DNA of 64,000 nucleotides. It comes from Branchiostoma floridae. Lineage: Eukaryota > Chordata > Leptocardii > Amphioxiformes > Branchiostomatidae. A program made the position numbers and the translations under genes. The stretch covers positions 11,562,404 to 11,626,403 of the forward strand of contig NC_049988.1 of assembly GCF_000003815.2 (NCBI RefSeq). The letters are read 5' to 3'. Shown here in pieces: positions 4,160-27,658 of this stretch (positions are counted from its first letter, which is position 1; the number at the start of each line of letters is the position of its first letter). Under the pieces are notes generated by a model that ran no database searches, had not been told where the DNA came from, and saw only the letters and a list, made by a program, of their open reading frames with translations.

Positions 4160-7100
4160 ATGTTATCCTGGGACGTCGTCGCAGACGACAGCGGGGTCGA
4201 CTCGCCCGGGTCGTCCCTGGGCTCGCCCACTCGCCACAGAACCGCCATGAGCCACGACGACTCTGCGCCGAGCTCGCCCGGATCTCCCGGGTCCTGTGGA
4301 CCAAGTTCTCCGCCAGGTTCGTTCAGAATTTGTCCATAGCTTTCTTCCTAACACGAAGAATTAACGTTTGGGTAACATTTTGGTCAGGAATCTTGAAGGC
4401 GAGCCACCAAAATTCATGCCCCAGTTTTGCCCCATGGTGCGTAGGTGTCGCGCCCTTTTCATTTCAGCTTCCGTTTTCGTATTACACGACCGCCAGATCA
4501 ACATTTGGTCTGTAAGTAACGTTACATTACTTGTTTGATGGCGTAATTTTTGTCCGCGGTTTTAAACATTGCTGGAAATTGCACGTAATGCACTTCTCAA
4601 CAGTATTGAATTTGATATTATAATTTTGATCAAAGATTTTCATATAAAAATTCTACTCCTAGTCTGACTTTTTTGGGTTTTCGGAAAAACAGTTCTGATT
4701 ACACCTGATTGCATTATACAAATTATGTTTAATCTTTTCCCATGATCTAGATGAATTTGTGGTTAACAGTGTTGTTGATTGAAATGTTTTGATTCCATGT
4801 CTTCTTTAAATCTGCCAGAGAATTGCTGCTATTTCTAAAAAAAAAGCAGAAGCAGAAGTTTATGTCCACAAAAGACTTTCATATCAATGTATACCTGTTA
4901 GGTGTGTTATGCATCTGTCCATATAGCTGGGGCAACGTCGCATGGAGGATTACGCGAACGTTGCCCCAGCTACTGTCCATATAGGTAGGAACACTAAGCT
5001 GTTTTTATACACAGGACTTGTGCTGAATTTTCACTTTTGTTGTAGGCTCTAGTTTGATTTGACATTACATTGTGGTGTAATCGTGTTTGACCCAGAATCA
5101 AGACGTCCTGGGTTCAATCCCCTGACATGCTGAAATGTTGTGGACAGTGCCCCCTGTGGAAGGCACTGAACATGAATTTCCTCACTTCACTCAGTTGAAA
5201 TGAGATGAAAATTAGTAACGTTACCTAGCTTTGGTCAAGGATGTCTCTTGTGGATGTTAGTAGTAAATGGAGGTTCTGTGAGGAATTTAGTTGTAACACA
5301 CCGAGGATCAAACCTTAACATTGTGTACAAGGCATCCCTTGGGACTTGACACCATCTAAAGGTTGTTGCCTAATACATAAAACACATTAGATCTTAGTAA
5401 ATGTAGTTTTACCATTGCCAATGAAAGTTGAAAGGAACCACCAGGATGGTACTGAATTTAAAGTTAAGTTGTTTTCAACTCTCTCAGTCTCTGTGACAGA
5501 CATTTATGTTCAACTGTCACAGCAGTGAAATTATGGAAAAATACAATTTCAATGCAGAAGAAGCATTTAGCAAATAACTATAGTCTGATGCATGTTTTTC
5601 TTGAAGGCATCCATTTTGGAACCGGTTTGCCCACATGTCAATCAACAGGTCAATCACCTGTCCTACCTGCACATCTGTTGATGTTGTCAAGAATTGTATA
5701 GTATTTTCAAAGCATGAAAGTTTGTGGATACATTTCTGAAGTTGGCAAATTTAGTTTAACCTTAGTTTGAACAAATTTCTTGCATTAGCTGTACATAGCA
5801 GGCATACAAATTGCAAGGTAGCACATCAAATCAGATCAGTGTAGAACAACAATCGTTCTTTGTCACCTTTATCTCATACATATTCAATAGATGTGACGTA
5901 AATATAATGATAATGCTAACACTAGTAACAAGCAGATGATTTGATGTATATTTGTAACATTTCATGTATTTCAATTTTTCTCTTCTCTTTGATTCAAAAG
6001 CTTGAACAAAGGAGGGAAACTAGTTAGGTAGAAAAATGTATTTCTTCAATTGTTACTAGTAATGACCTTTGATATTGATTATTGAATGTTGAAATTGTTA
6101 AAAATGTTAACCATAAATGTTTAAGTATATGAAACTCTTATGTGAAGTTTACACTAACATTACAATAAACAACTTAAGCTAATATTAGGCCATTGCATCA
6201 GACCGTCAAAATGCTTCGTCTCAACTTTCAGGTGAGACTTTGTACTTTTCCCTCATTTGCATATGAAAAGAAAGGGGAACAGCAGAGCTGAAAGCAAGCA
6301 GAGATGACCCTGGGTCACATGCCTTTTAGTTCATGCCTCGTTGTTTGGTCACAACACACAAAATAAATAGACGCAATGTCATGGAGCCACTCCTTTATGA
6401 TGCAGCCAGACTAGGTTACCATGGCTGCACATACGTAAGCACTTTGTACATTTTTTGAGCAAGGTTGAACAGCAGGATTCGGTTCCTAAGTCTAAGAAGA
6501 AATGACGCAAGGGAAATTGTCTCATTCCTGGTACTGAAAAGAAATGCCATCAGAACCTAAATTAACCATGTTTTGCAAGGATCTAGCACCAGAGACATTA
6601 TAAAGCACACTTTTTCACTCCACATTTCTCAGTTTTTCTTCTGGTCAGCATGTAGGTGTGATTGTACAGGTAGCATGATCATATCTAGACATTACACATA
6701 TACATTAATTTTGTTTATCTTCCAGATCATGCACCTTCCTTACAATACATGTACTTGATGGGGAAAAGCACAGGCTTACAGTTACATTACAGGCATTAGC
6801 CTGACTTGCAAGTTGCAGTAAATAGGCTCACATCAGCTTCATGGAAAACAATCCATAGGTACTAGCTTGAATGGGACATAGTCAAGTTCTATTTTGTTTG
6901 TCTTTAGTTTATCATCCTGTGTGTAACAAGAATCACAATTCTTTCCCCTAGATATGAAGATCCCCACTGAACGTCAGGTAATCCTGAACAGCAGGGGCAA
7001 GAGAAGGAACACTGTGAAAAGCATGCTGATAGAGAATGGAAACTACCCATACCCAAACCAAGGAAGCCCACAAAATGGCAAGCAGGGGAGCCCGAGACGT

Positions 7101-10100
7101 TACACGAGTCAGGCAAGCCCACCAAACCTTCTCTACCTTCAATCTACAGTTGGAGAGTATCCTGTGGTTGTCAACACCTACAGTTTAGCCCCTCAGAGTC
7201 AGATGCCTCCAATGAATATCACTTCCAGTGCTTGGCCGGAGATAAGTGTGCTATCACCAAGTAGCACTTTGTCATCAACTTGGCCACAACCAACTGTGTC
7301 CAACAAGGTGATGCTCCCATCTTCTTCAATCAGCAGTTCATGTGTGAGCAGTGACTCTACAGGACACGTCACCAGCCAGTCCCCGCAAGTTGCTGTGGTC
7401 ACCCCTTCGCGCTCCATCCCTTTGGAATCTTCCATCACACCTAATGATAATGGGGCTGTTGACTTGATCCTGGCCTTGAATGAAACCTATGCAGCACCAA
7501 ACTCTGATTCAGCCAAACCAGAATACGAGAAGCCAGACATTGGCAACAGTGCTTGGCTGCAGATTGACACCAAGGCTTTAGGCAATGGTCTCCTTGACAA
7601 CATCGAAACGTTCGACAGCGTAGATTCAGGCTATACTTCTATCAAAGGTGGAAGTGAAGGGATCCAGATGCTGTTTGACACAGAAAGTCCATACAACCCG
7701 CAGGGAACAAGCACACCCAAATGGAGCCCTCCTCAGACAACAGCTTCAGTAGTGGCGCCACCTAGCGGTACAGTCTCCCCACCAAAGACATTCAGCTCCA
7801 AGAACGGCTTGTCCATGGGCATCATGCAGGAAGTTACACTAGCAAACACCACAACAACATCGCTCCCTTCATACACCTTGCCACTCTATGAAACCGAATT
7901 TCGTGCTCCAAAAGGCCCCCCTACCACAATGTACATCCCACCGGGAGGGAAGGTACAGCAACGGCCGCTCATCAGGCCATCACAGTTGGGAGTCAATAGT
8001 TTGATGACAAACCAGACGTTGCCACCTTACACTATCCAGAATCACTCCCTTCCCAGCGCACAGCCACACAACAGCGGTCCTGTCAGTCAGCCACGTCCGA
8101 CAAGCCGTCAGTCTGCAGAGCGAAGCCTGCCACTTGCCAGGCAGATCTCTCAAGAAATTCCTAAAGATGCGCTGTTGCATCAGGACGACGATGGGGACAC
8201 GTAAGTGTCAGCCACTTCTCTGTTAACCTTCATGCAAATGTCACATTAAAAAATAATTTGTTGTCTGAAATGGACTATGAAGCCCAAAGCAAAGTTAGCA
8301 TGTGATCAAAGTGCTGTCTTCACACCAGTATGTCATAACTCAGCATTAATACTAGTAATCGATTTCTTGTGTCTGACTCTGAACTAGCTAAGTACATGGT
8401 ATTTATGAGGAAGTAAACACAGTGACAACAAAAAAGAACAGTAGCTGCTGGCGGCAAAATTGATGTTGGCACTAGTCAAAGAGATGATACTATGATTACT
8501 ATACTTTATGTACATGTATGTGTATCTATGTAACTGGTATAAACGCCCTTTGGCGTGACACACCAGCTTCACGGGCACGTGGCGCGGCAGCAGCTGGTTA
8601 TATCCCACCGAACGAAAGACCTGTCACACCTAATTTTTGTACATCTATCTGCAATGGTTTCTATATGTACTTATGTTACGTAGAGGCCGAGCAAGTGTTA
8701 CGTAGAGGCCGAGCTGCTAACTAGCTAGAGCTATTCAATTGGATACCATGTTAGTAATGTTGGGTTTGTATTTATCATCCACACCACAGGTACCTGACAA
8801 TAGTGGTGATGCAGGGGAACTGTGATGTGGTGCAGGCTGTGGCAGAGCAGATGGTCAGCCTTAACCTCAGTCTGGACATCCCTGACAAACATGGAAAGGT
8901 TGGTATTGCTGTTTCTGCCGTTTCCAACACTGTCACTAGAAATGTACATGACGTGTGCGTCTCATTACATCTGTTTGCAAGAAATCTGTGGATTTGTACT
9001 TTAGTCTATTCTATTCCTTTGATTATGTTATGGCAGATGTTTATGCCTGTACAACATATGACACAATAAAGTGTGTAGTACTAGTAGAAAGGGCAGTTCA
9101 ACTGAATTTGAGCTTCAATGTGCTTTCATTTTAACTTGCTATGATAGATGGTACAAATACATCTCGTGTTCCTAAAAGTAAATAGACAAACAAACCATTG
9201 CCCAAATTCATTCTGACAATCACATTATGTGAAGGAACCAAAACTTACGTTGAATATAAAGCCTCAAGTTTGCACTACAATATTGCTTTTTTTCTTTGAG
9301 AAGTCATTCTTGTTGTTTGGTTGCCCGCCAGACTGCCCTGATGCTGGCTGTGATGGAGAAGAGGGGGGATATGGTGTATCACCTGGTCCGTCTGGGGGCA
9401 GATGTGAACAAACAGGACAAGGAGGGCCGTACAGCGCTCCACTTCATCGCTGTGAACGGGGCCATAGAAGTGCTGGAATGTCTCTACAAGGCATGTAAGG
9501 AAGAACACAAGGAAATCAACATGGACTGCAAGAACTACCAAGGTAGAAGATATTCCTGCATTTAGAAAAAATATCTTCTTGTAAGTGCGGTATGAAGACT
9601 AGCTGACTACTGTGTACCCCTGTTTCAGGGACATCAGCATCAGTATGATCTAATACTGGATACTACTGCTTATAGCTTGCCTAGTTTGCCTTAGTCAACA
9701 TGAAGTTTGGAATGGAGGATAGCTAGGGAAGAAATCACTTTTTTTAATAGTGTATTATAAGAGTTAGTTTCCTATCATCAAGTTACCGGTAAGATTTGGA
9801 ACTTTATTCTTTGCTTTCAGACCAGATATGTCCATAGCAACATAACCAAACATAACTACATAAGATATAACAACCACAATGATAGAAAGGAAACGATATG
9901 AGAAACAATAGTAAAAACTACAATGATAGAAGGAAAGAATATGACAAACAATAGTAAAAACGATAAGAGACAATGACGACTCGCATAATGTTATACATTG
10001 GCAAAGCCTTAAGGTTTCTTTTTTTCCTGTATTAACTTAAATCATTTGAGTCTCTAAATGTTGTGAATGTTTATGTCCACAGGCCTAACAGCCCTGCACT

Positions 10101-12002
10101 GTGCCCTGATGGAGAGTGGTCACTGCCAGGGCCAGCTGAAACAGCTGCCCAGGGCCCAGTCCATCACCAACGTCCCCGGCACGTTCATGGAGACACGAGA
10201 GAAGCAGGTCCTGAGGGGGAAACAACAGAAACTGCAGCAGGTGGTGAAGGCAATGCTGGTCATGGGAGCCTCTCCACGCTGTCAGGTCAGTCATGTCTGC
10301 TTTCTGTACTGTACAATGCTAGAATACCAGCAATTGCAATGATGTCACGAATAGTTGGGCGAATAAATAAGTAAATAGATAAGATGTCACGGGGATGCAC
10401 TGGCAGACAGCAAGCAGTTGGAGGACAATATATTAATTTACATACTATTACATGAAATTTGATCTACTAATGTAGATATTATTTAGTAATCTAATCTGCT
10501 GACGTCCTGGTAGGCACACTTATTGTAGGTAGAATATTCCAGATGTTAACAAAAACAGTGATCGCTCATATTGACTATCTATTTGACTGTTGATATTTCC
10601 ATTTTAATGTTAAAGGCATAGCCCGCATAGTCTTGAGCTTCATTTTGCATTGCACATAGTGTAATGTAGGACCCACACTTGCTATGAGTAAATGTAGCCT
10701 GAAATGTCAAATTTTTCCTAACTTCAGAAGTTGTAGGTTGCTGTAAAAGCTATTATTTGTTAAACAATCATCTGTAAATGAACATGTGTCGGCCTTTGAT
10801 ACAGAATAAAGTAACTGAGCTTTCAACTTCAATATTCTTGATTGTGACTCAGGATGCAAAGAGTGGCCGTACAGGGCTGCATCACGCTGTGCAGAGCTGC
10901 AGTACTGAGCTGGTGGAGCTGCTACTGTTTCACTACCACAACGCTGATATCAAGCACAAGTTTGTCAACCAGACAACGTACAACGGGAACACAGCACTGC
11001 ACGCAGCAGTGGGACTGCAAGATGACGGCAGGGTGAGTTCTCGAAACTGCGGTAACTTAAATTCACACCAAAAATGCCTTTATTCCCAATATTGTTTGTG
11101 TAAGGAAAAAAAAGTCCACCAAAAATCTATTATCTTATGAATCTTCTTTGTTAGTTACTCTGCACTGTAAATAGCCCAACAAACTTATAGAGAAGCATTG
11201 AGGAGACCTGGTGTTCTTAGCCAAAGATGATTGCACCAGTACTAGCTACTGGAAAAAGCATGATGTTCCACCTAAGTTGAGAATGACTGCTTTAACATTC
11301 TTACAACAGAGCATGTCTTTGGTGTCTTGCTCAAGTGTGTGTTTTATTACTACAGGCTGATATTGTGCGGCTGATTGCAAAGAATGGAGCAGACCAGAGC
11401 ATCAGGAATGATGAGAATGACAGGGCCATAGACCTGGTCAAGAAGGAGGATACTGCAGTAGGTTTTCTATTTTTCTTTTATTTCACATCACATTGGACAT
11501 ATACATGGCTTCACTTTACTTTTCACTTTATTTATTTTACCAGGAAATGACTCAGGTCAAACTAGACCTGCTTTACAGGCAATCCTGGGCACATAGAAAG
11601 AACACAATGACAATACAGGCTCATACTTGTGTTATAACAGTTTGGGAGAAACATGTTAAACACTAGTTGCTTTGCTTTGGTTGGCTGGTTGGCAGTCTTT
11701 TGTAAGCTAGTAGTTATAACGATACATGTACCATGTATATATTACCATATGACTTACTGGAATCTAGTGAACATTATATTTGGAACCAAGAACTGTTCTG
11801 TTGACAACAGCAGACACAGGACTAACATAGCATGTGAAACATTCCTTTCAAAATTAAGTTTAATAGGTTTATTATTGAATGTACTAGAAGTAAGACTTGA
11901 AAGTCTCTGATTATCTTGTTCATTCTCAGTCAGTAACTGTTCTGTTGTATCCATTCACAGGTCCGCAGCATTCTCGGCGGTGGAAAGAAGTTCCGCAACT
12001 GA
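4160..12002 (+). CDS. IkappaB-family ankyrin protein, nuclear IkappaB-zeta/Bcl3-like
   Basis: Eight coding exons (4160-4316, 6952-8200, 8790-8898, 9332-9542, 10083-10285, 10853-11032, 11356-11457, 11961-12002) join in frame to 750 residues. Residues 1-52 are acidic/Ser-rich and contain DSGVDS (residues 10-15), the beta-TrCP phosphodegron form used by cytoplasmic IkappaBs. Residues about 60-82 contain a basic stretch followed by NTVKSML, resembling the OCA peptide of IkappaB-zeta/OCA-B. A long Ser/Thr/Pro/Gln-rich region of about 380 residues follows, with a second DSGxxS (277-282). From about residue 469 come ankyrin repeats (TALMLAV, GRTALHFIA, GLTALHCAL, GRTGLHHAV, GNTALHAAV, then a final GADQSIRN repeat). 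The end, VRSILGGGKKFRN, resembles the IkappaB-zeta tail. It probably binds Rel dimers through the ankyrin domain. The length and order suit nuclear IkappaB, but the degron is unusual. The start is the first ATG of the first recognised exon; an upstream exon cannot be excluded. Confidence 0.87.
4317..6951 (+). other. First intron of the IkappaB-family gene
   Basis: A 2.6 kb AT-rich intron between phase-compatible splice sites (CCAG/GTTCGT and CCCCTAG/AT). It contains the small fold-back insertion at 4924-4972 and no recognised exon. Confidence 0.6.
4915..4984. mobile_element. Miniature fold-back element flanked by a 12-bp direct repeat
   Basis: The arms TAGCTGGGGCAACGT (4924-4938) and their exact reverse complement (4958-4972) enclose a 19-base loop. 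The direct repeat CTGTCCATATAG stands at 4915-4926 and again at 4973-4984. Overlap of the left repeat with the left arm leaves the true insertion boundary uncertain. Confidence 0.6.
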
Positions 12003-18210: not shown

Positions 18211-19441
18211 ATGGCGGCTGCGACTGCTGTCAAGTCGTTTTTCGAGCTCTCAGCAAAGGCGCTGTCTGGAGAGATGGTGAGCTTCAGCCGGTACCAGGGG
18301 AAGGTGGTTCTGGTGGAGAACGTGGCGTCGCTCTGAGGCACGACGGTGCGGGATTTCACCCAGTTGAACGAGCTGGCCGCCATGTTTGGGGACAAGCTAG
18401 CTATCCTGGGGTTTCCCTGCAACCAGTTCGGGCATCAGGTCAGTGTGTGAACCACCCCAGCCTAATTAAATCTTGCTTATAGTTATAGCAGCCCACCCAA
18501 TGTCCAAACAGGAAGGGGCCAGTTGCAGCCCTGGACAGCAGAGTTTGTGTTACACAGACCAAGGAGGTTGAAAGAGTCCTTGCACAAGAACCACCCGGCA
18601 TTCTCAACATACCATCCAACTGCAGTACACTTTGATTTTATCCTTTCCACATCTAATGAGTAAACTTTTATCCAAACCTGAGTAGTGACAGTGTAACCTT
18701 TTTGTAAGGAAATAAAGAACCTAGCTAAAGCTTGTTATTCTCAAACATGGAATGTGGCCTTCATAAATCTACAGTTATACAAAGGAGCTTATGCATGTGC
18801 TTATGAGACTACTGGTCTTTTAAAAAGTTTTATGATTACACAGCCCAGAGTAAGAATGATCATTTGTCATAAGTGGCATGACAAAGTGCACCAATTAACC
18901 TTCCAGATTCCATAGTTGCTAGTTTTGCACCCTCCCACACAGCTATGTGTGACATTGTTACATGTAAGTTGACCTCAGATAGCAAATTGCCAGAACTCTT
19001 TTTCATTGTCTCTGCAGTTGTGTAGGAGCAAACTGAAAACATTTGAAAATCTACCAATTGTGAATAAAACTGTTACTCTTGGTTTTTGTCCAGGAAAATG
19101 CCACCAATGAGGAGATCCTGAATTCCCTAAAGTACGTCCGACCTGGGAACGGTTACGAGCCCAAGTTCGACATGTTCTCGAAGGTCCAGGTCAACGGGTC
19201 CGACGCCCACCCTGTCTTCGCCTACCTACGAGAGAAGCTGCCCATCCCTGCTGACTCCGAGAATGCGTTCCTGATCATGAATGATCCGAAGTGCGTCATC
19301 TGGAGTCCGGTCACGCGTACAGACATCGCCTGGAATTTCGAGAAGTTCCTGATTGGTCCAGACGGGCAGCCAATCAAGCGATTCAGCCGCTACTTCCAGA
19401 CCATCGACATCAAGAATGATATAGAAGCGCTGCTGAAGTAG
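18211..19441 (+). CDS. GPX1: Selenocysteine glutathione peroxidase (GPx1/2 type)
   Basis: It reduces hydrogen peroxide and soluble hydroperoxides with glutathione, in the cytosol (no signal peptide is seen). Exons 18211-18438 and 19094-19441 join in phase 0 to 191 residues. The TGA at 18334-18336 is in frame at codon 42, inside [15 protein letters not shown], the GPx active-site loop, so it is read as selenocysteine. The rest of the tetrad is present: Gln76 (CNQFGHQ), Trp156 and Asn157 (AWNF). The [12 protein letters not shown] motif and a C-terminal RFSRYF segment also match the family. Length is close to vertebrate GPx1. A SECIS in the 3' UTR (20029-20106) supports recoding. An AG at 18197-18198 hints at an upstream noncoding exon. 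GPx1 versus GPx2 cannot be assigned, because lancelets may predate that split. Confidence 0.94.
18439..19093 (+). other. Intron of the GPx gene
   Basis: A 655-bp intron with GT at 18439 and AG ending at 19093, phase 0. No exon, repeat or RNA structure was noticed. Confidence 0.8.
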
Positions 19442-20696: not shown

Positions 20697-20702
20697 TTTA
20701 TT
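20697..20702 (-). terminator. Candidate poly(A) signal of the PBZ-PARP-BRCT gene
   Basis: TTTATT on the plus strand reads AATAAA on the minus strand, about 670 bases beyond the stop codon at 21374. It lies about 150 bp from the GPx signal, so the two 3' ends converge. Other AT-rich hexamers exist nearby, so the choice is tentative. Confidence 0.35.
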
Positions 20703-21373: not shown

Positions 21374-24300
21374 TTAAGAAAAGACATAGTCGGAGATGTC
21401 CTTTTTCTGTTGAGTGATGATACGGTCATATAGAAAGTCTTCAGACACAATTGGCACCTGCAGAAAGACAGAGAAAAGTTGTTCACATCTTGCTGTCTCA
21501 CTGGTATACAGGTACATGTATAGAAAAAACAATACCAGAAAGACAGAGAAAAGTTATTCACATCGTGCTGTCTCATTGGTATACGTGTATACAGGTATAG
21601 AAAATATATTACCACCTTTACGCACCTTATTAGGGGATATTCTTTTATAACATAATCTCATTGTTGCCACAGATCAAGGTAGTAGGCCAGGCTAACATAC
21701 AATATAAATTTACATCAGAAAATTCTATCAACACAAATGAACTCTCCAATCTAACACATTGAGATGATGTATGCCTTACCTGTGCATTCTCCGCCAGGGA
21801 CACTTTTGTGGAGGGTGTTTCTCCTTTCATCTCCGAGGCAGACGCCACCAAGGTCACGCCTATGTACAGCTGCTGCTGGGTTGCTTTAAACACAAATATC
21901 TCATTAGTTTTACATCCTTCAAACAAGCTTTAACAATCTGTTGTGACGTTAGAACTTTGTGATGTTAGCATCATCTGATAACCATTTTCCTACGCAGAGA
22001 CATCCAAGGGCTCCTGCAAACCACCTGATGTCTGTACTCTGCTATCTCAACCGTCACCATCTCCACCTATTCTCTGATTGGCTGTTTTGTGGCAACGCCC
22101 ACAGGAACTGATGGTGACGGTTGAAATAGCAGAGTACAGACAGGAGGCGGTTTGCTGGTGCCCTTGGATGTCTCTGTGTAGGAGAATGCTGATAACAGGT
22201 GGCCACAAATCAATATGTCACCGAAAGCCAATTGCTTTTCACTGTTAGTGTCCTCTGGAAATCAAGTGAGAAAATATAACTTGAAAAATAGTCCATTTTC
22301 ATAATCAACAATTGATAACTGAGCTGCACGTCCTTTTAAAACACAAGCTAGACATCTTTCCATTGTATCATAACATTTGTGATAATCACAGGATGTCATT
22401 CTTAACTAAAATCAATGTTCCTTTCCTAATTGCAAGAGAATACATGTCATAATGAGTAAACATGCTGTCCAATTTTAAAGAACTCAAATACGAAACATGA
22501 AAATGTTCTCCCTTCAAAGACATTTCTTGTAGCATACCTGTTTTGCCGCCATGTTTAATGATGAGGTTGTAGATTTCAGAGTGCTTGTCTGCCAGCTTAC
22601 CCGCAAGGTGAAAGGTCATGCCAGTAAGGATCCTGTAACAGTAAACATAGTCGATTCATAACATTTTCAGTTTCTCACTCTATTCACAGTAAAAAAACTT
22701 CAAAGGGAGGCAAATAAGCTCTTAAAATACCCTTCTCTGGACCAAATGTACAGTTTCTAAATCAAAATATCCAAGGAAGTGTAATGATTCAAGAAATTAA
22801 TGTTAGTAAACATTGAAATCTCACTTGGTTGCTGGCATCTTGGCTGCAGTCTCGTACAGTTTCTTCATTTCATCAACACTCTTGGTTGCTTTGATACTTT
22901 TCTGTAGGAACACATTATGGAACAACATCTCCCACTGCACTTTACCACCGCACGGCTGCCGCACGGCTGCCGCACGGTGACCTGGTGACGGTGAAAATGC
23001 CGTGTTGTGTTTTCTGCCAGCCTGCCACAAATGTTTCAACTCCCCAAAAAATACAAGTCTCCAGTTTCTCTCTATCACAAAATTAAAACCCTGCAAACTT
23101 AAAGGCATTTTGTTGTCATCTTGCTATTTTAATTGCCGCAAAATGACGCCCACATACCTTGTATTTGAAGTCTCCCTGTGCATGAGTGTAGTGTAGGATG
23201 TAACATGGCAGGATGTGGTGTGAGTTGAAGATGATGAGTTCCTTTTTGTCAGGTGAGGTGTGTGAGTCGCTTCCCTTCATCAGGGGGCTGCCATGGATCA
23301 GGGACGAACACTGGTAAACCTGGGGGGGTGGGGTGGGGGGGACAGGGCAAATATGTCAGAAAAATTGATACACTATTTAAAGTTTGCTAACAGCTGCTGT
23401 CATATAGCCTGGTATCCAGCCGTGTTATAGCTCCCGAGTATCTTCTGTCCTCTCCTCTCCGAATTTGTGGAGAGGACAGAAGAGACTCGGGAGCTATATA
23501 TATGATACAGCTAGATACCAGGCTAGCTGTCATACACTTTGCAAAGATTTTGCCAGAGCCAAGTTATTATGTTGAAGAATTCTACTAACCTGTCAACTGA
23601 CAGATTAAAATGCATAACAATATTCAGTACCTTGCCTGGCAGCACCTGGCACAGCAGGATCCTGTTTCCCCCCTTGATGTACGGCATGGAGTAGGACGGG
23701 TACTCGCTGAAGTATACACCCTTACCGTACCAACCCGTATCTGTCGCATGCTTGAAACCTGATTCACCTGAAGGACGTGTACAATAATGGCAAGCATATT
23801 ATACCTTCAACTTCTAGATGTCTTGCTGTTGTGTTGCTAATGTACACAATTAAGTTTATTTTCTCACAGATATTTCTTTAACACTTAAAGTTGAATACAA
23901 TCATCTAGAAAGATAAAATGTTAGATCAGACTGAATAGGTCCTCTTAATTCTTTATCAATTGCCAATTTTAATCTATGTTAAACTTGGTCTTCGGACACA
24001 TGAGATTGTATTTTCTCCATTTCTTCTTCCCTTTGAAACAAATACGGCCAATGACCTGGAGAAAATGGATGTCACCATGTAAAGTAGACACCCTGAGGTG
24101 TTCCATTACATTATGTAGCAAGTGGTAGGATAGAATTTGAGGGGCTGGTCACCATATATATATATATATGTATAATACGAATGTGCTTGAGTAAGAATAA
24201 ATAATAGAGCAGTAGTTTGTGAGGCTACACTATGTGAAGGTAATATTGATATCATGTATTTGCTTGTCAAAATATTGCCTGATCTTGGAGTTGGAACATT

Positions 24301-27300
24301 GTGGTGTGTTCAGGATTTGAGCAACAGAAAGAAATACAAACATTTAAGGAACAAATGAAGAAACAAATGAGGCAAGCTGGCAAAGCAAATATTGAAAAGG
24401 ACTGGTTGTAGACCTGGTGCCTTAAACCCCAGGCTGGTGATAGGGTCGATGTTAGCCTGTGCTGTCCCATGGAAGGCCAACACTGGGTACGACAACATCT
24501 CTCCTCGCTTGTCTCTCAGGTCCTTCTGAGCTTGCCTGGAGAAAAATACATTTCAAAAACTTAATTATAACTGATTCATAATCATTTCTTGATGATATTT
24601 TGTTGTTCTGATGTAGTCCCATAGTACTTAATTGTCTATATAGCTAGTAGTTGTTATTGGTTGCCTTACCTTGTGCAATTGTTGAGCAATAAAGTTCATT
24701 CATGTATATCAACAAAAAGTATGCCCAGGTAGTTTTACCACCTTTTGATAATAGGATAGCCTCATGAACTCGGATTGCTAACAGTTTTAATGCTTGAACA
24801 GGAAGCACAATATGATAATATGTAGATATGCAATTTATGTCTAACTGGCAATAAGGTTAAATCAGGGTTTGAGGTGGTAAAAAGAGATACATGACTTACC
24901 TGAATCTTTTTACTACTTCAGGTGATACCACATACTCTACTTTAGTCACTCGATATCTGCAGATGAGATAAATACTGTGTCATTCACACATCAACATACA
25001 AAGATGTTAAGGTAGTAGAAAGGGGTAATGTTTGGAAGTGGCTTGTGATTGTATAATACCTTGTTGCAAGACGATAATCTATGCACAATTTCATGACGTC
25101 ATGATGACGAAATAAAAGAATTACAGGACTACATCCAATTCTTCAAATGTTATAGAACAAGAAGATCGGACTAGTAATGGGCAGAAATACTAACTAGCAA
25201 GAATATTGTAAATGTCAAATTGGAGTTCTCTAACATACAGTTATTTTCTAAGTCACAAACATTTAGATTATCACTTGAAAAGAAATACATGAAGAACAGT
25301 TACATGTACAAATTGACAAAAGTTCTTACCCGCTGCCTGCGTCTAAAAGTCTGTAGAACTGAGACTCTGCAAGTCGAAAATGAACCTGTAATACCGAAAC
25401 ATGCTGATGATGGGGGAAGCACAGGACTAAGTCATGAATTAAACGCTCAATGAATCTGTCATGCTGATTAACAACTAGATCTAACACCTCTAACCTGCAC
25501 TTCCTGTACTTTCTTCAACTCAGGTAAGTCTGGCCTTTGTGGTCATCTTCCCATTGTCACTCAAATAACTTCAGACACACACCAACCTAAACAAACTAAC
25601 AGACAAAACATACACTCCATACACTCCATACACAGAGTTAATAGGACTGCAAAAAAAGGGTTATCATTCCTGACCTGTGCAGCAGACCCTTCCTTGTACT
25701 GTCTCTCTGGTATCAGGGGGAACTTGGTGACCTCTGACTTCTCCAGGGCCTCTTTTTCACCTTCTACCAACAGCAGCCCTTCTGACAACTGAAAATAATA
25801 CAGTGTGAAAAAAAGATATAATAAAGACATGTTCCTTTATTCCGATACCCTTTATGATGATGTGATGGTGGTCATGCAATAATTTCATTTCATATCATAG
25901 TTTTTATTGATGGACGAATTGACCATGGAGCTGCTTTCATGACGAACAACTACCTCCTATATGCAGACCTACAAGACTCAGCAGTAGAGCTGTGCTACAA
26001 ATGCTAATGGAGGACAGGGATGCGTGGCATTAGTAATCCAGGCTTCCCAAGTTGGCATCCGATGATGTTCTTGAGGACATTTAGTTTTTGCAAAAAAGTA
26101 CATGTACAAGTAATTGTAATTTCAATGTCCCAAAAAGATTAGTGAAAACTTTCAATAACTTGACATAATCTTTGAATATCTGGCTGAGCATCATCACAGT
26201 AGCTTTACTGGAGTGCTCACAGAAAGAGTGTGACACAAAGTGACTCTTTGCCCCACCTCTTGTTGAAGTGTTTGTAGTTCCTTCTCTTTCCTCTCCATTT
26301 CCTTCTTAGTGTCCTGCAGCTCTTCCTCCAGCTTCTTCTTGGCCTCCACAGCTCTCTGGATCAGCGCTCGTCTCTCCTCCTCCGTCAGTTTGGAGTAGTT
26401 CTTCACCAGTCGTGTGGCATCACTGTCAGACTTCACCAGCGTGGATGCCTGATATATCCATGATTCACATTGTACTGATTAAAGTAAGAGGTTGGATGAT
26501 TCTGTGAGAATGGGTGTATCATTGTATTTAAAAGACTATTTTTGAGAATAGCAGCCAGTTTGACAGCCGCTCCTATCGACCATTGGAATGATGACAAAAG
26601 CTTCCGTTTACAGGTGCAGCATGTGAACGGTTTACACAATCATTCAAATAAAAAGGAGTTCAGGAATCGGAAGCGTCCAGATGTGTTTCCTTGCTATCCC
26701 TCCATTACTCCCTCGGTGACGAATTCTCGTCTCAGCGGTATTTCCAAAGAACCAAGGAAGAACATCTACATCTACCCTTGCTACAATTCTGCAGTACTGG
26801 TAGCTCTTAAGAATGAAATCAAGAACATGAAATTCTCGGTAACCTTTTCGTTCTCAGCCTCGCACTCTGCCAGTTCTGTGTCGGTGTCGTCGCTGTCCTG
26901 TGGCTCGCCGCCCGTGGTCGGGTGGGAGTACTGTGCGAAGTGCAGCAGGTTCTTCCGGTAACAGTTGGCGCCGTACTTACATGGCGGCAGGCCTGATGTG
27001 GAGGCAACAGCTGACAGGTCTGCTTTATCTACAGCCTGGAAAAGGTGGCACAAATGTGCATAAAATCGAATGTATGAAAAAAAGTCTCTCTATAATTGCA
27101 TAACCCACTACCTGAATGTTATCAACATATCTCCTTTTCAAATAACATTTTGCAAATTACATTATAGTATACAGAGGTAAATTATGCAACAACCACAATC
27201 ATTTCCTGAGTAACTTGACAAAGTTCAACTCAAGACTATTCCATGTCACAACAAGGTTTGTTATTTTATCATCATTTACAAAATAATGCTTTCAACACCT

Positions 27301-27658
27301 TGTAAATGTAACGGAATTGTCTAAAATGTTTTATATTTAAATTTCAATAAGTAAAAGCATATACTACAAAATCGCCACTTTGTACGTCTCTCTTTTTCTG
27401 TTTTTTCATCTTTCCTAGTCAAACAGTTACTCACATGGCCATGGTTCAACATGTGAAAAGTGGGAGGGGCGCTTACAACTATTTAGACCTACAGATCTTC
27501 TTTACCTGCGAAGTCTCCCCATCCTTTGGGTGGCGGAAGTCCTTAAAGTGTTGTGGGTTCTTCCTGTAACAAGACGCACCGTAAGGACACAGTGGCAGAG
27601 CGTCAGAATCAGAGGTTTTCAGTTTCTTGGCCGCAGGTCCTCCATCCATGGCGGCCAT
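21374..27658 (-). CDS. PBZ-PBZ-PARP-BRCT protein (putative ADP-ribosyltransferase)
   Basis: Thirteen exons (27658-27506, 27035-26844, 26448-26257, 25788-25675, 25385-25330, 24956-24900, 24535-24414, 23767-23631, 23319-23158, 22901-22825, 22632-22538, 21883-21780, 21457-21374) join in frame to 514 residues. Order: basic KKLK (11-14); PBZ finger 1 with C24, C30, H37, H43 in the CxYGxxCYRxNxxH form; PBZ finger 2 with C70, C76, H83, H89; acidic linker; coiled coil (about 128-179, rich in E/K); PARP catalytic core with His277 (FHGT), Tyr314 (GKGVYFS) and Glu368 (KKELIIFN), the H-Y-E triad of polymer-forming enzymes; BRCT (about 421-514) with HLAGKL, HGGK and IVSEDFLYDRI, the last like the PARP1 BRCT. 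It probably binds poly(ADP-ribose) and transfers ADP-ribose in the nucleus. Activity is inferred. No vertebrate protein of this order is known to me. Confidence 0.88.
21457..21602. repeat. Tandem duplication, about 70-bp unit, next to the last PARP exon
   Basis: Two direct copies built on CAGAAAGACAGAGAAAAGTT lie side by side, each continuing CACATC.TGCTGTCTCA.TGGTATAC. They start at the acceptor of the terminal exon and fill the intron beside it. Confidence 0.7.
21988..22183. mobile_element. 196-bp fold-back element in a PARP-gene intron
   Basis: TCCTACGCAGAGACATCCAA at the left pairs with TTGGATGTCTCTGTGTAGGA at the right with one mismatch. Inner arms around CTGTACTCTGCTAT and the opposing ATAGCAGAGTACAG continue the stem. 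TGATAAC occurs a short distance outside each end (left and right), but the spacing is not that of a clean target duplication. There is no ORF. Confidence 0.7.
23405..23525. mobile_element. MITE with TAGCCTGGTATC ends and perfect 9-bp target duplication
   Basis: A 121-bp element with ends TAGCCTGGTATC and GATACCAGGCTA folds on itself through CTCCCGAGT and ACTCGGGAG. The exact direct repeat GCTGTCATA stands at 23396-23404 and 23526-23534. It lies in an intron of the PARP gene. A left-end fragment of the same family occurs at about 59272-59325. Confidence 0.85.
24159..24170. repeat. Short AT dinucleotide run
   Basis: A short (TA)n tract in an intron of the PBZ-PARP gene. Simple repeat, no further meaning seen. 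Confidence 0.6.

Follow-up and report, generated by a model that had tools for sequence, protein, structure and literature searches.

On the minus strand of a 64,000-nucleotide stretch of the lancelet Branchiostoma floridae (assembly GCF_000003815.2, contig NC_049988.1, positions 11,562,404 to 11,626,403; hereafter the window, whose numbering we use), a predicted gene at 27658-21374 encodes a protein of 514 residues with the domain order PBZ-PBZ-helix-PARP-BRCT. We propose that its product would be an ADP-ribosyltransferase brought into play by poly(ADP-ribose) (PAR) already present, not switched on by DNA, and acting after PARP1 and PARP2 in strand-break repair; we put the probability of this reading at about one half. 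A lancelet fusion of PBZ and PARP domains is already in print (PMC4245714, section 3.4), and the gene is no new class. The initial annotation's picture of a protein that both writes and reads PAR thereby loses its novelty; the part that stands is that predicted PAR-reading fingers, an ADP-ribosyltransferase core and a BRCT domain are found in one gene. What is added here is the full architecture, a core that keeps the triad glutamate, and a link to PBZ fingers in LIG3 and close to a TDP1-like gene.

Domains and exons of the predicted protein

The gene model, predicted from the genomic sequence alone, joins 13 exons, all on the minus strand, into 1545 nt that encode 514 residues and a stop codon. 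Its 12 introns (192-654 nt) are all GT-AG and the reading frame is preserved throughout, in agreement with the in-frame joining first described. Directly 5' of the ATG lies AACAAAC and directly 3' a G, which we take to be a good initiation context. An exon-level search of the lancelet genome with the whole protein found a single copy of the gene: 12 of the 13 matches are its own exons and the last is a PBZ finger on C1, while the short exon 6 yielded no match. Two hairpin-like inverted repeats lie at 21978-22193 in intron 11 and at 23398-23532 in intron 8, with 84-nt arms that are 88% complementary and nested arms of 30 and 32 nt; these are perhaps small mobile elements.

The families named in the initial annotation all score above their Pfam curated cut-offs, so the matches are not due to chance. 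PBZ (PF10283) is matched in two stretches at 96.2 bits against a cut-off of 22.7 (E 1e-27), PARP (PF00644) at 46.1 bits against 26.7 (E 5.4e-12, residues 236-344) and BRCT (PF00533) at 36.8 bits against 21.3 (E 4.5e-09, profile positions 3-78 of 78, residues 420-500). Among NCBIfam profiles, no match to the protein exceeded its cut-off.

The start codon and finger 1 lie in exon 1 (27506-27658) and finger 2 in exon 2 (26844-27035), the latter also recovered in the genome search for PBZ. The zinc ligands are CCHH in PBZ spacing, at the residues originally assigned: C24, C30, H37 and H43 in finger 1, and C70, C76, H83 and H89 in finger 2. The best match among solved structures is human APLF, whose two fingers each give a gap-free alignment with finger 1; the ligand spacing recurs in finger 2. 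In APLF each finger contacts PAR through two tyrosines and an arginine (figure legend, PMC6264785), and these positions are occupied by Y26, Y31 and R32 in finger 1 and by Y72, Y77 and R78 in finger 2. Two working PBZ fingers raise the affinity of APLF for PAR more than 1000-fold (PMC4030884). The PBZ consensus as given in the same source has a lysine or arginine three residues ahead of the first cysteine, where both lancelet fingers have leucine; we treat this deviation as a soft feature, since the Pfam match is far over its cut-off. The lancelet protein thus shares with APLF the tandem fingers, their spacing and their PAR-contact residues; it differs in giving no FHA match over the Pfam cut-off and in containing a PARP domain, which APLF is not known to have.

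A charged helix follows in exon 3 (26257-26448), and exon 4 (25675-25788) ends the linker. Residues 97-182 contain no proline and no glycine, and a simple heptad score peaks at residues 153-180, at a value that shuffling the 80-residue linker 1000 times reached in 6 cases. The coiled coil proposed earlier for this region is thus likely, as judged by a simple score.

The linker also bears on whether the model merges two adjacent genes, one with the PBZ fingers and one with the PARP and BRCT domains. Such a merger could arise in a predicted exon model, exons 3 and 4 are without homology support, and two AATAAA motifs (25908 and 25841) fall in intron 3. Introns 1-4, however, are just 289-470 nt long and leave scant room for an intergenic stretch, and both linker exons look coding by codon score when read in the joining frame, which is the sole open frame in each. 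The score contrasts codon use learned from 4275 nt of coding exons elsewhere in the lancelet with the introns of this gene, and covers exons 1-12. Compared with overlapping intron windows drawn from the same introns that supply the background, a design that favours the exon/intron contrast, exon 3 (0.358 per codon) exceeds all 1724 sampled stop-free windows of 190 nt, and exon 4 (0.139) passes the 95% point (0.081) of the 120-nt windows but stays under their 99% point (0.220). The gene also contains an AATAAA at 23860 in intron 7, and a further one lies beyond the stop codon at 20702; several would be expected by chance in 6.3 kb of AT-rich sequence. The published mention of a lancelet PBZ and PARP combination likewise argues against a merger (PMC4245714, section 3.4). 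On the strength of the short introns and the behaviour of exons 3 and 4 we judge two genes to be very unlikely, and the prediction of a single gene fusing PBZ fingers, ADP-ribosyltransferase core and BRCT is supported.

Past the core, exon 10 (22825-22901) forms a linker to the BRCT domain, which begins in exon 11 (22538-22632), continues through exon 12 (21780-21883) and ends with IVSEDFLYDRI and the stop codon in exon 13 (21374-21457); all three BRCT exons are covered by Pfam and solved-structure matches. The domain had been called PARP1-like. Its identity as a BRCT holds, and PARP1 is its best solved match, but a weak one (E 0.0093, 24 of 75 aligned residues identical). The BRCT of lancelet PARP1 has one internal intron, and when we looked for an intron position common to it and the BRCT described here, none was found. 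Given the weak match and the lack of a common intron position, the likeness to PARP1 is a weak lead. The arrangement differs as well, since the BRCT stands ahead of the core in PARP1 and after it in the lancelet protein.

The catalytic core and its relatives

The PARP core is spread over five exons. Exon 5 (25330-25385) leads into it, the match to PARP10 starting at residue 222; exon 6 (24900-24956) supplies its first strand and exon 7 (24414-24535) H277, both by Pfam and solved-structure matches. Exon 8 (23631-23767), matched by Pfam, carries K311, Y314, S322 and Y325, and exon 9 (23158-23319) closes the core with E368. The predicted H-Y-E triad is H277, Y314 and E368, as first assigned, with E368 placed by the gap-free end of an alignment to PARP13 and by MAFFT. 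S322 and Y325 are presumably the counterparts of nicotinamide-site residues of PARP1.

Although it shares the triad with PARP1, the core is not of PARP1 build, being without a recognisable WGR or regulatory domain. Pfam gave no match at E<=1 anywhere in the 514 residues for WGR, PARP regulatory (helical), PADR1, ankyrin, SAM, WWE, macro or VIT domains, and none over cut-off for CCCH or PARP zinc fingers; the VIT and vWA domains that follow the core in PARP4 were likewise not matched. Against solved chains the core matches PARP13 best (4e-09), then PARP14 (1.6e-05), followed by PARP10, PARP12, a tankyrase (0.0018) and PARP1 (0.004). Tankyrases resemble the lancelet protein in having a core that lacks the helical domain; they differ in their ankyrin and SAM domains, and match the lancelet core less well than PARP13 does. 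A scan with the 156-residue core of viral and genome contigs returned 56 and 76 pattern matches, respectively, none of which was confirmed as a relative.

The triad glutamate separates this core from many of its lancelet relatives. It is kept in the query core and in none of the 10 lancelet clade-3-like cores, a count of PARP12- and PARP14-like rows that omits the glutamate-type row L011 and three clade-1 rows; those four keep it too. In clade 3 the glutamate is replaced, mostly by an aliphatic residue, with a single clade-3 member of the Citarelli 2010 set keeping it (PMC2964712). L011 (G000:C10:9088172-9088612, minus strand) is a PARP core with the motif YNEFVIY in a 368-codon open frame, and groups with neither the clade-1 nor the PARP12/14-like rows.

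The phylogeny called for in the initial annotation was run, and the core moved among the trees. The lancelet genome gave 30 PARP matches, 26 of them in 17 fetched loci and 4 unfetched. Fourteen of the 17 loci became tree rows (L010, L016 and L018 were excluded as too partial), making 16 rows with the query and human PARP13; row labels such as PARP12-like and clade-1 are our own reading of the sequences. In the 16-row tree the query branches basally to the clade-3-like rows (80/58; branch 4.29). With human PARP13 removed its position was not resolved, and with PARP13, L008 and L011 removed it stood next to the clade-1 pair (82/85). The clade-1 rows grouped apart from the query in all three trees (99/98, 98/98 and 99/98), as did the PARP12/14-like rows (93/92, 84/91 and 82/85). 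Four groupings were tested and not rejected: the query with clade 1 (p-AU 0.268), with PARP13 alone (0.059), with PARP12-like rows and PARP13 (0.105), and with L011 (0.312). A fifth grouping, which unites the query with every clade-3-like row, is that already present in the 16-row tree.

The protein might be read as a clade-3-like relative of PARP12 and PARP13 with a cytoplasmic or antiviral role, its fingers binding RNA or PAR there. PARP13 is the best solved match of the core, the grouping with PARP12-like rows and PARP13 is not rejected (p-AU 0.105), and PBZ is structurally most similar to RNA-binding C3H1 fingers (PMC4030884). We consider this quite unlikely, however: the fingers are of the APLF PBZ type and not CCCH, and the protein keeps a glutamate lost in nearly all clade-3 members (PMC2964712). 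It also has PBZ and BRCT domains without CCCH, WWE or macrodomain matches over cut-off, and the BRCT, together with the PBZ fingers that accompany LIG3 and a TDP1-like gene elsewhere in the genome, points to nuclear DNA repair.

A bolder interpretation is that the protein would belong to none of the six described PARP clades and represent an unrecognised lineage, with the polymer-making glutamate kept, no DNA-operated lock and tandem PBZ fingers in its place; it would then be a PAR polymerase primed and switched by its own product and lost in vertebrates. We regard this as unlikely.

PBZ fingers elsewhere in the lancelet and in print

The exon-level search of the lancelet genome, which would miss fingers split by introns, gave four PBZ matches over cut-off, two of them in this gene. 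The third, on C14 (G000:C14:6110448-6114500, plus strand; L004/L024/L025), is flanked by a DNA ligase catalytic exon and the LIG3_BRCT exon and directly preceded by two more partial PBZ-like repeats, which apparently gives the DNA ligase III (LIG3) of the lancelet a PBZ finger. The fourth, on C1 (G000:C1:35082997-35089200, plus strand; L002/L022/L023), is an exon about 1.4 kb upstream of frames on the same strand that match TDP1 (E 4.5e-07), which may indicate a TDP1 with an N-terminal PBZ. That the other fingers fall in or near strand-break repair genes favours a repair role for the PBZ-PARP-BRCT gene. Elsewhere in the genome, on C1, is a PARP1 with PADR1, BRCT and catalytic exons that could produce the initial polymer; the protein described here has no matches to the PARP zinc fingers, PADR1, WGR or regulatory domains of that enzyme.

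In the immediate neighbourhood, a glutathione peroxidase exon (19064-19438, plus strand) converges on the 3' end of the PARP gene. Farther away are an ankyrin-repeat exon (10778-11137, plus strand) and, upstream of it, a long open frame rich in serine and proline (6927-8201, plus strand) with no Pfam match at E<=0.01.

In the literature, the mammalian PBZ proteins on record are three (APLF, CHFR and SNM1A), and PBZ-PARP combinations are recorded in protists (PMC4245714; PMC4030884), which bears out the background given in the initial annotation. The pairing of PBZ and a PARP catalytic domain had been known from Entamoeba, and Perina 2014 added Capsaspora and lancelet in one sentence (PMC4245714, section 3.4). 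The proteins of Entamoeba, Dictyostelium, Capsaspora and lancelet share with this one the presence of both domains in one chain (PMC4245714; PMC4030884). The lancelet protein of that sentence is very likely the product of this gene; its complete architecture, its triad, a C-terminal BRCT and an accession are all absent from the passage (PMC4245714). Among titles and abstract openings, none announced the complete PBZ-PBZ-helix-PARP-BRCT architecture, which full texts may contain. The occurrences in Capsaspora and amoebozoans are compatible with an old fusion or with a recurrent one, the animal genome searched here being the lancelet's own.

Proposed recruitment by existing PAR

We propose a model where the tandem PBZ fingers would bring the enzyme to PAR laid by PARP1 and PARP2 at DNA strand breaks. 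With no DNA-operated lock, it would be active wherever it was recruited, and could modify neighbouring repair proteins or lengthen existing chains, while the BRCT and the helix might tether it to a partner or mediate self-association. The enzyme would then act in a second wave, guided by the PAR mark and not by DNA. Chain lengthening is the least certain step and is doubtful, as it depends on one glutamate and as PARP3, whose clade retains H-Y-E with few exceptions (PMC2964712), adds single ADP-ribose units (PMC10722394). Tankyrases, on the other hand, produce PAR without a helical domain (PMC10722394), so that polymer synthesis by the lancelet core would be possible.

Several points weigh against this proposal. 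Activity, protein and transcript alike are predicted from sequence. E368 lies beyond the end of the Pfam PARP match at residue 344, the nearest solved cores belong to PARP13 and to proteins named as mono-ADP-ribosyltransferases, and retention of H-Y-E is, on the example of PARP3, no proof of polymer synthesis. The query branch is very long in all three trees (4.29, 4.54 and 2.45), and, as none of the tested placements was rejected, any clade assignment of the core is tentative. Within the gene model, the coding score is negative for exons 5 and 6 and near zero for exon 10 (0.011), and transcripts might end early at the AATAAA motifs of introns 3 and 7; exons 5 and 6 do fall within the stretch matched by PARP10. 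Finally, Table 2 of PMC4245714, in its flattened form, marks no plus for the lancelet under PBZ, which conflicts with section 3.4 of the same paper. This table may have lost entries in flattening, as its Dictyostelium row likewise has no PBZ plus though the text names PBZ there.

Some of these points lend themselves to another reading, in which the protein would still be recruited to PAR through its fingers but would add single ADP-ribose units, or serve as an inactive scaffold. Proximity to PARP13, PARP14, PARP10 and PARP12 fits this view, as does PARP3, a mono-transferase from a clade where H-Y-E is mostly conserved (PMC10722394; PMC2964712), and the stretch ahead of E368 is, by alignment, shorter than in lancelet PARP2. 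Against it, H277, Y314, S322, Y325 and E368 are all present, and the query retains the glutamate that all 10 of the lancelet clade-3-like cores replace. We hold this reading to be possible, though we do not expect it.

If recruitment of an active enzyme by existing PAR proves true, PAR would recruit its own writer, creating a positive feedback in strand-break signalling for which vertebrates use separate proteins. A 514-residue enzyme without a helical lock would make such feedback easy to test in vitro. In a broader context, the additional PBZ fingers, seen in LIG3 and shortly upstream of a TDP1-like gene, suggest that strand-break repair in the lancelet may be wired so that several enzymes read PAR directly.

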